Source: Lachnospiraceae bacterium (lineage in GTDB: Bacteria; Bacillota; Clostridia; Lachnospirales; Lachnospiraceae). Taken from it: DNA of 52,299 nucleotides. Each line of letters starts with the position of its first letter. Positions within the stretch are counted from its first letter, which is position 1. The DNA is taken from NCBI GenBank assembly GCA_022797375.1, contig JAAWKM010000005.1, positions 1-52,299 of the forward strand. The letters run 5' to 3'. The notes under the pieces were generated by a model. The model worked only from the letters and a program-made list of their open reading frames with translations. It did no database searches and was not told where the DNA came from. The position numbers and the translations under genes were made by a program. Shown here one piece after another: positions 261 through 48,006 of this stretch.

Positions 261-512
261 AATAAAATTAACAGTTTCCAGTTATATCATTAATTTTGCC
301 AGAAGACAGCAAGTTTCACATGTCCAGGCTGGATTATTCCATGACAGGTGCACTTTGGCATCGCCGGCGTTTGAATCCCGTACTTTGGGATTTTACGCGC
401 CGCTGCGTATGCCAACGTAGTGAAAACGTGCCCTGGAATGGAATAATCCAGCCTGGACATGGAAAACTTGCGTCCGTCTGCCAGCACAAGGTAACTGGAA
501 TTTTTATTAAAC
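261..512 (+). repeat. Palindromic element family 1, copy 1 (core present)
   Basis: CATGTCCAGGCTGGATTATTCCA pairs with TGGAATAATCCAGCCTGGACATG; core GCACTTTGGCATCGCCGGCGTTTGAATCCC...GGGATTTTACGCGCCGCTGCGTATGCCAACGTAG. Confidence 0.85.
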
Positions 513-730
513 GGACATGTGGGATATATTTATAAATGTTACTGCCCAGCTTTATGGCTTTATAGTAACATAACCAGATTGTTTCTTTCTGTAAATTTTA
601 TTTGTAAAATAAATTTTAATAAATAAAGGAAATAGGTAACTGGCGTCGAATATGTATATTAGATGGTTTTCTGGCTAAATTATTACATATGCCGCTTACA
701 GATGTTAATATATAGAAAGGGGTGTGTTTC

Positions 731-9872: not shown

Positions 9873-10106
9873 GGTGTGTTGCGGGCTGGAAGTATACATT
9901 TTTGATGCCCTGTCAATTACAAAGTGTTTTTAACGACAGTACGCTTCCGCTTGGATGGACCACGCAATGGTGCATAGAGCCTCACAAAACGAGGCTCAAG
10001 CACCAGCGGTTCCATAACAACTGTCTTATAAAAGCACATTTGTAAATTGACAGGCAATCTACACATTGTATAACCATACAATAACCTTCCAGCCTGCAGG
10101 CACACC
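9873..10106 (-). repeat. Palindromic element family 1, copy A (divergent)
   Basis: GGTGTGTTGCGGGCTGGAAG pairs with CTTCCAGCCTGCAGGCACACC; rc core TGGAACCGCTGGTGCTTGAGCCTCG...TGAGGCTCTATGCACCATTGCGTGGTCCATCCAAGCGGAAGCG. Starts directly after the cinA stop. Confidence 0.75.
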
Positions 10107-10394
10107 AGAAAAAGTATTTGAAATAAAAAACAGAAACAGACAAGTTTTAGCTGTGAAGAAGTAGTTTCAGAAACAATTTATGCTATGATTAAACCATGTC
10201 TGTTTTATAAATTATAATTGCTCAAGCAATTTGTATATTTGTGCATATTGCTAGTTTATAAAACGGACGTTATATTTAAACTGCCATTACTGGTTTTAGC
10301 AGGAATATGGTTTGCAGGGTGTTTAAGCCAAATGCCAGTGGCAAGCTACAGGACACGCTGCTTTGCATTTGTGGGAACAAACAGCAGCTTCCAG

Positions 10395-10574
10395 ATGCCG
10401 CAAAGAAAGATTGTATGCTTCCAGGGCACTTATGGCGCCGTCGGCGTTTATATCCTGTTTTAGATGTCCCAAAAGAAATATAATTTTCTTTTGGGACATA
10501 AGGATATTATGCGCCGCTACGTGAGCCATTGTAGCGGGAGCGTGCCCAGGAAGCATACAATTTCTTTGCGGCAT
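10395..10574 (+). repeat. Palindromic element family 1, copy B (expanded apical hairpin)
   Basis: ATGCCGCAAAGAAAGATTGTATGCTTCC pairs with GGAAGCATACAATTTCTTTGCGGCAT; core ATGGCGCCGTCGGCGTTTATATCC...GGATATTATGCGCCGCTACGTGAGCCATTGTAGCGGGAGCGTGCCC. Confidence 0.8.
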
Positions 10575-10647
10575 GGAACTGCGTACATAACCACAGCATT
10601 GCATTCATCTCTGCCAGGACACCAGCATGGCACATGGAGGGAAAGTA

Positions 10648-26587: not shown

Positions 26588-26685
26588 AGAATTCCTCATT
26601 TCTATAAAAATTTTGAATAATTTATTATAAACTAATATAGAGAAAAAGGCAAATTTTACAGTTTATATAGTTATGTCTGTTTGGT

Positions 26686-26952
26686 AAAATTTCCAGTTAT
26701 TCTGTGCTGGCAGACGGACGCAGGTTTTTTATGCCAGGGCGGGTTTATTCCACTCCAGGGCACGCATTCCGCTACGTTAACCCACGCAGCGGCACATAAA
26801 GCACCTGTGTACCAAAAGAAACTTATGTTTCTTCTGCCACACAGGTGCTTAAATGCCGGCGGGGTTAAAGTGCACCTGTCATGGAATAAACCCGCCCTGG
26901 CATAAAAAACCTGCTGCCTGTTGGCAAAATGAATGATATAACTAGAAACTGT
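26686..26952 (-). repeat. Palindromic element family 1, copy C
   Basis: TATGCCAGGGCGGGTTTATTCCA pairs with TGGAATAAACCCGCCCTGGCATA; rc core TTTAACCCCGCCGGCATTT...GTGCCGCTGCGTGGGTTAACGTAGCGGAATGCGTGCCC. Confidence 0.85.
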
Positions 26953-26984
26953 ATCTGCCGTTTGTCTGAATAATTTAACACACA

Positions 26985-27236
26985 ATAAAATTTCCAGTTA
27001 TAATCATGGGTCTGCTAGAAGACAGCAGGTTTCACATGTCCAGGCTGGTATTTTCCATGACAGAAGCACTTTAGCCCCGCCGGCGTTTGAATCTGGTTTT
27101 CTCAGATTTTATGCGCCGTTGCGTGGGCTGATGTAGCGGAAGCGTGCTCTGGAATGGAAAATACCAGCCTGGACATGTGAAACCTTGCGTCCGTCTGCCA
27201 GCACAGTATAACTTGAAATTTTATGAAACGGACGTG
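26985..27236 (+). repeat. Palindromic element family 1, copy D
   Basis: TTTCACATGTCCAGGCTGGTATTTTCCA pairs with TGGAAAATACCAGCCTGGACATGTGAAA; core GCACTTTAGCCCCGCCGGCGTTTGAATCTGG...CAGATTTTATGCGCCGTTGCGTGGGCTGATGTAGCGGAAGCGTGC. Confidence 0.88.
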
Positions 27237-37815: not shown

Positions 37816-37840
37816 AGAACTGGTTAGTAACACTGGTTTA

Positions 37841-38091
37841 TAAAATTTCCAGTTATTCTGTGCTTGGAAACGGACGCAGGTTTTCTATGTCCAGGCTGGA
37901 TATTATTCTATTCCAGAGCACGCTTCCGCTACATCGGCTCACGCAACGGCGCATAAAATCTGAAAAAACCAGATTCAAACGCCGGCGTAGCCAAAGTGCT
38001 TCTGTCATGGAATAATATCCAGCCTGGACATAGAAAACCTGCGTCCGTTTTTATACAAATACAGAATAACTGGAAATTTTATGGAACGGAT
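37841..38091 (-). repeat. Palindromic element family 1, copy E (most perfect)
   Basis: Uninterrupted 41-bp perfect arm AAACGGACGCAGGTTTTCTATGTCCAGGCTGGATATTATTC and its exact complement; outer AAAATTTCCAGTTATTCTGT/ACAGAATAACTGGAAATTTT. Confidence 0.92.
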
Positions 38092-38172
38092 GTGAGGGCA
38101 TATATGTTCACTTTGACATATTTGTATATTTACTTTATAATATATAAGTATTAAATATATGGAGGTATATAA

Positions 38173-44215: not shown

Positions 44216-44336
44216 ATTAATCTCCTCTTTTTTATTATAATATTAAAAACACGGCACCAGTATGTCATGTATGGATTATAACATAAAATATAGCAGGGTA
44301 AACTCACCATACCACAGAAAATAAGTACCAGAAACA

Positions 44337-44406
44337 GTCTGGACACAAAAAACCTGCGTCCGTTTGCCAGCACAGGATAACTGGAAATTTTATGAAAGGG
44401 ACGTGG
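44337..44406. repeat. Half-element (right arm only) of palindromic family 1, copy F
   Basis: CAGTCTGGACACAAAAAACCTGCGTCCGTTTGCCAGCACAGGATAACTGGAAATTTTATGAAAGGGACGTG; no core or left arm. Confidence 0.75.
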
Positions 44407-47724: not shown

Positions 47725-47738
47725 CATATGTAAATACG

Positions 47739-48006
47739 TTGAAAAGAAGAAGTAGCAGCAGAGGGAAGTTTATAGAAAGCCACCGGCTGATGGAAGGTGC
47801 AGCGGAACCTGTATGTGAATACATCTTGGAGTAGCGGGCTGAAGGGCATATGCCTTGTAAGCTTAGACGGTAGTGCATCCGTTATAATGCAGGGATATGA
47901 TAGTATCCTGTAGAGGCAGCAGGTGTGAACCTGTTGTAAAAAAAGGTGGTAACGCGGTAATTCCGTCCTTTTATCTGTATTATATGCAGATAAAAGGACT
48001 TTTTTA
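47739..48006 (+). promoter_or_regulatory. T-box leader (tyrosyl), with terminator
   Basis: AAGGTGGTAACGCGG T-box-like motif; TAC specifier candidate at 47820-47822; terminator GTCCTTTTATCTG...CAGATAAAAGGACTTTTTT; upstream of tyrS. Confidence 0.92.

Follow-up and report, generated by a model that had tools for sequence, protein, structure and literature searches.

Palindromic MITEs of probable ISAs1 parentage and their spacing from sigma-A promoters in a Lachnospiraceae bacterium

Copy E and its repeat family

The window described here, i.e., the whole stretch of DNA analyzed, comprises 52,299 nt from Lachnospiraceae bacterium (assembly GCA_022797375.1, contig JAAWKM010000005.1, positions 1 to 52,299, forward strand). 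A palindromic repeat, denoted copy E, lies immediately upstream of a promoter and an open reading frame, and further copies of the same family are found elsewhere in the window (Table 1). The full inner arms of copy E (37868-37917 and 38001-38050) are 50 nt long and 94% complementary, and the 41-nt perfect arm lies within them. RNA folding of the + strand between 37800 and 38110 gave -163 kcal/mol, compared with -72 +/- 5 for shuffled sequences (z = -17.9); the same folding of the - strand gave z = -19.4. The initial annotation had described copy E as a nearly perfect palindrome of ~250 bp with a 41-bp arm. The perfect arm and the extreme folding energy agree with this description. However, the inner arms are separated by an 83-nt core that holds a branched hairpin of its own, and copy E is therefore not a continuous palindrome. 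The left terminus is damaged, and no target duplication is visible at the flanks of copy E.

Table 1. Coordinates of copy E, its downstream flank and other family copies in the window.
Feature	Position	Strand	Remarks
Copy E, entire element, 264 bp	37831..38094		Terminal repeats: left CACTGGTTTATAAAA (degenerate), right TTTTATGGAACGGATGTG
Left outer arm of copy E	37840..37866	+	93% complementary to 38056-38082
Left inner arm, 41 bp, unbroken	37868..37908	+	
Branched core, conserved	37935..37992	+	Apical hairpin GGCGCATAAAATCTG-N6-CCAGATTC..GCGCC; common to other species of the genus
Right inner arm, 41 bp	38010..38050	-	Exact reverse complement of 37868-37908
Right outer arm of copy E	38056..38082	-	Subtype unlike that of the left outer arm
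-35 box TTGACA	38113..38118	+	Perfect; 18 nt past the right end of copy E
-10 box TATAAT	38136..38141	+	Perfect; 17-nt spacer; promoter points away from copy E
ORF, 176 aa	38173..38703	+	Downstream of the copy E promoter
Two copies, inverted orientation	26673..27236		Between divergent ABC-F ATPase and rplS genes
Further copy	275..519	-	Upstream of dnaG
Short copy or fragment	44335..44405	-	With family terminus

Dozens of relatives of copy E, 78-88% identical, were found in its own genome. The terminal motif GTCCGTTTNATAAAAWTTCCAGTTA (≤3 mismatches) gave 118 matches there compared with none for the reversed control, and the core hairpin gave 49 compared with one. Among 200 sampled Lachnospiraceae genomes, matches were confined to this genus, where they occurred in 7 of 28 genomes and, beyond the window's own genome, mainly covered the core. 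A search of the species-representative collection with the exact pattern returned no matches.

The bounded elements carry terminal inverted repeats, CACGTCCGTTTCATAAAA / TTTTATGAAACGGACGTG, at both ends and span 51-694 bp from CACGTCCGTTTCATAAAA to its complement, the longest consisting of two hairpins in inverted orientation. Eight fully bounded elements are flanked by direct duplications of 9-10 bp (shifted-flank control, 0.03). The intergenic gap between cinA and its neighbour measures 920 bp in the window; the orthologous gaps of two relatives are 132 and 135 bp long. There was no transposase frame inside the elements inspected, and when the interiors of unpaired termini were searched for autonomous copies, no transposase was recognized; the frames there resemble host genes. 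With its terminal inverted repeats, target duplications of fixed length, dispersed transposase-less copies and the enlarged cinA gap relative to the relatives, the copy E family is a MITE, a non-autonomous DDE transposon and thus a known kind of element. The copy number and the 10-bp target duplications show that it has spread through this genome, where it now accounts for more than 100 termini.

Several other repeats were seen in the course of this analysis. At 9904-10059 in the window, and at loci L291-L330 in three other genomes (G201, G202 and G209), the core hairpin GGYGCATAAA-stem-CAGATTTAAGCRCC is found between quite different termini (CTGGCAATTTC..GAAATTTGCCAG and CTGTCAATTAC..). The core hairpin is a module common to unrelated ends, both here and in other species; in the core-bearing elements of those three genomes the termini differ, and no promoter spacing was obvious by eye. 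The gap downstream of cinA, ~130 bp in relatives, contains a small further element with ends CATGTCTGTTTTATAAA / TTTATAAAACGGACG (approximately 10184-10271) and a palindrome with a third type of core (10300-10600). Elsewhere in the same genome, a 97-bp module, ..GACAGCGTTTTTTGCTGTCTTAGAATC..ACTATTTCCAGTTA, recurs with 96-100% identity at 40 or more sites, most of which are contig ends. It is probably a longer, recently active family member that breaks the assembly.

Arm complementarity and the origin of copy E

The two arms of each copy resemble each other more than expected. Across 78 hairpins from this genome, the mean complementarity was 0.862 between arms of the same copy and 0.784 between arms of different copies; none of 5000 permutations reached the own-arm value (maximum 0.806). 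A variable block was exactly alike in both arms of at least 21 of 71 copies, compared with a permuted mean of 1.8 and maximum of 7, this count being a lower bound from a coarse test because the block start was misplaced in some rows. Since own-arm complementarity exceeds cross-copy complementarity and block identity far exceeds the permuted values, the arms of family copies do not evolve independently. Among the matched arm variants, 11 of 15 are one edit away from another, with intermediates present, and some variants are blocks or indels that occur in both arms. The arms had been reported to differ between copies while each was perfectly paired within its own copy. Their co-variation is borne out, but perfect pairing is too strong a description, because many copies carry real mismatches between left and right arms. 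Arm mismatches in the 78 hairpins include 77 G.T and 44 A.C pairs, with no clear strand bias. In the core, A.C mismatches outnumber G.T, without a clear strand signal, in an alignment that had lost several right arms. The earlier reading was thus right about a family with co-varying arms but missed the nature of the object, a MITE with an ISAs1-type parent.

The outer arms of copy E point to a composite origin. The left one has the GCTTGGAAACGG form, and the right one has the TTTGTATAAAAACGG form, resembling the left arms of two other copies (L030 and L041). Because they belong to two different subtypes, copy E resembles a chimera of two copies joined head to head, and its near-perfection is better explained in this way. 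Selection or template-switch correction had initially been put forward for the paired arms. Family copies would then have rearranged with each other, and the arms of copy E may have been made alike through recombination or template switching. A possible though doubtful alternative is that the arms became identical by template-switch (quasi-palindrome) correction inside one copy, with no joining of two. The identical inner arms and differing outer arms would fit a switch that spanned the inner arms only. However, the right outer arm is of a left-end type belonging to another subtype (TTTGTATAAAAACGG), absent on the right in most copies, and a second copy is therefore required as donor. The persistence of the palindrome, previously singled out in view of SbcCD, deserves only mild notice: although an SbcD homologue is encoded in the genome, 83 nt part the inner arms.

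Selection for a functional hairpin, acting for example as an RNA structure or as a cruciform bound by a protein, could also keep the arms complementary, with the palindrome regulating the downstream promoter. The excess of own-arm over cross-copy pairing is compatible with such a role, as is the apical core, which is conserved across species with compensated changes (GGTGC/GCACC vs GGCGC/GCGCC). We nevertheless consider this explanation unlikely: neither strand shows a clear G.U excess, copies of 51-77 bp exist without the core, the same position is taken by several core types, and the arms are imperfect in many copies. Nor was there a gathering-level Rfam match in the window apart from a T-box leader (RF00230), at 47730-47973 upstream of a tyrosyl-tRNA synthetase-like gene; a known structured RNA family for copy E was sought at its own coordinates, with no gathering-level match. 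A specific origin for copy E takes the place of a mysteriously preserved palindrome. That origin is ordinary, and the choice of target is the part that deserves specialist attention.

Probable ISAs1 parentage and promoter spacing

On contig C42 of the same genome, the stop codon of a broken transposase gene with the PF01609 fold overlaps a family terminal repeat. This transposase was identified as ISAs1 by NCBIfam model NF033564 (1e-33). The other PF01609 transposases of the genome (on contigs C125, C106, C21, C68 and C238) were considered as parents and rejected, as they are without the family terminal repeat. In a genome of another species (G217), a 549-bp ISAs1 remnant lies within the same terminal repeats, flanked by a near-perfect duplication of 9-10 bp. 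Both shared terminal repeats (loci L237 and L274) and the 8-10 bp duplications of ISAs1 derivatives were thus found. An intact transposase with the exact family terminal repeats was not found in the genome, and the parents are degenerate. Because degenerate ISAs1 transposase genes are flanked by the same repeats in two species, this one included, the family probably consists of ISAs1-derived MITEs. Judging from the shared terminal repeats, an ISAs1 transposase may have mobilized them in trans. The elements resemble ISAs1 insertion sequences in that identical terminal repeats enclose an NF033564 transposase and in the 10-bp target duplications, also seen at ISAs1 copies on plasmids, but differ in being palindromic, non-coding derivatives with a very high copy number.

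When 106 flanks of family ends were aligned, the logo showed two complementary-strand boxes outside the element, TTGACA at -28..-23 and TATAAT at -51..-46. This is the pattern of an outward-pointing sigma-A promoter with a 17-nt spacer. Of the best promoters per flank, 21 had an offset of 18 nt and 33 an offset of 19 nt; the other offsets accounted for about one each. Promoter matches of ≥9/12 at 17-20 nt were found at 60 of the 106 ends (2.8 in shuffles), and matches of ≥10/12 at 43 (0.27 in shuffles), while ~40% of the family ends have no recognizable promoter at this spacing. An outward ribosome binding site and ORF followed at 42 of 58 ends with a promoter, compared with 5 of 24 without. 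The inverted pair next to rplS has outward promoters at both ends, TTGCCT-17-TATAAT at an offset of 20 and TTGCAA-17-TAGAAT at 17. Offsets are mostly 18-19 for elements with 10-bp duplications and 17-18 for those with 9-bp ones. The offset thus tracks the duplication length, which places the proximal cut 8-9 bp upstream of the -35 box.

A similar spacing was observed for related elements. The ISAs1 remnant of the second species lies exactly 19 nt from TTGACA-17-TAAGAT. Among 15 delimited ISAs1-type insertions from other Bacillota, drawn from genus, class and phylum samples, 8 of 30 ends had a ≥10/12 match at 17-20 nt; shuffles gave 0.12, and no more than 2 in any of 1000. A single IS (TIR CAGAAGTTTAGCAC) accounts for eight of the insertions, and its transposase is a relative that falls short of the ISAs1 cut-off (41 vs 70 bits). 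Several IS copies come from the same genome, which makes them less than fully independent, though their duplications differ. The ISAs1-type copies L264, L362-L365 and L379 have no promoter at this spacing. The IS with TIR CAGAAGTTTAGCAC was seen in genomes G345 and G413 (L351 and L359-L366) as a 1612-bp element with 9-bp duplications and a DDE_Tnp_1 transposase of 422-459 aa. This transposase falls below every NCBIfam cut-off, and half of the delimited copies have a promoter 17 nt away. IS256-type insertions of the class (n = 13), treated alike, had no promoter at this spacing at any of 26 ends. Seven distinct plasmid-borne ISAs1 copies from other phyla, with clear repeats and 10-bp duplications, gave at most two weak promoter matches, and no clear promoter signal was seen for Proteobacterial copies. 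Because the plasmid copies gave only these two weak matches, we claim the spacing for Bacillota alone.

Proposed target choice and its significance

Taken together, copy E is best explained as a MITE with ISAs1 ends, placed by a preference for promoter-upstream targets and later altered by rearrangement between copies, an explanation to which we assign a probability of about 0.8. The spacing itself is observed; an active choice would mean that the transposase picks sites located ~8-9 bp before the -35 box of a sigma-A promoter. Insertion at such a site with a 10-bp duplication puts the element end 18-19 nt from the -35 box. Most likely, the transposase would contact promoter-bound RNA polymerase or recognize the promoter or upstream-element DNA itself. 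The alpha C-terminal domains of RNA polymerase bind the region 8-9 bp upstream of the -35 box. Sites of this kind are non-coding, and an insertion there does not disrupt the core promoter.

The spacing might instead arise after insertion, if elements landed at random and only those tolerated just upstream of promoters survived. Intergenic insertions are better tolerated in general, but a survival filter of this kind is very unlikely to have produced a 2-nt peak over a nearly flat background with no minimum-distance edge, and IS256-type elements of the same class show no peak. Most unlikely of all is that a Mutator-like transposase (ISLre2/ISKra4/TnGBS type) rather than ISAs1 moves the elements, since despite a similar type of target, 15-17 bp upstream of sigma-A promoters (PMC3942029), ISAs1 gene remnants are enclosed by identical terminal repeats (CACGTCCGTTT) in two species, the offset is 18-19 rather than 15-17, and unrelated ISAs1 copies themselves show the spacing.

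Insertion 15-17 bp upstream of the sigma-A -35 region has been described for TnGBS/ISLre2 and some ISKra4 elements, and an interaction with the polymerase complex was proposed, while IS256 elements were without such targeting (Guerillot et al. 2014, PMC3942029). TnGBS/ISLre2 (p-MULT 3) and ISKra4 (p-MULT 4) share with the present elements a constant upstream distance to the -35 box. They are moved by Mutator-like transposases, however, whereas the elements here are of ISAs1 type (DDE_Tnp_1), with 10-bp duplications and an offset of 18-19 nt. Membership in these groups is disfavoured on two counts: the remnants inside the terminal repeats match ISAs1 (NF033564) and PF01609, and the peak at 18-19 nt, rather than 15-17 bp, indicates a placement that works alike but is shifted. 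ISAs1 has 0 occurrences in PMC3942029, and no report of promoter-upstream targeting by ISAs1 was found in the open-licence literature. As a strategy the placement has precedents, but in that literature we found no description of it for this transposase family.

Other palindromic or transposase-less repeats are less similar. A REP is a tagged palindrome (GTAG/CGTC) tied to a tyrosine transposase. Like the present elements, REP/BIME palindromes with RAYT transposases are abundant and intergenic and often form inverted pairs. REPs are 20-40 bp long (PMC3733652), however; the present elements exceed this size and have terminal repeats of DDE type as well as 10-bp duplications. Both their size and their duplications speak against REP/RAYT membership. 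The bacterial MITEs BrickBuilt and MITEPgRS of Porphyromonas are likewise short, intergenic and transposase-less, with terminal inverted repeats and target duplications. Within the part of PMC4596501 covered here, they have IS5-type ends, unlike the ISAs1-type ends of the present family, and fixed promoter spacing is not met with.

We are inclined, with some reserve, towards a broader interpretation, that ISAs1 transposases of Bacillota, a family apart from the Mutator-like TnGBS/ISLre2/ISKra4 group, independently evolved fixed insertion upstream of sigma-A promoters. They would probably do so by docking on promoter-bound RNA polymerase, which would have let palindromic MITEs of ISAs1 descent occupy dozens of sites upstream of promoters in a single bacterium while leaving its genes unbroken. 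Earlier work treated promoter-upstream targeting as an unusual trait, confined to two Mutator-like lineages. If it holds for ISAs1-type elements, it would be a recurrent strategy of harmless insertion, with yeast Ty3 at Pol III promoters as a parallel, and it would offer a second, independent system for asking how a transposase recognizes the transcription machinery. Within one genome, the family also sets large hairpins along the upstream border of numerous promoters, a natural test of their effects on expression and genome stability.
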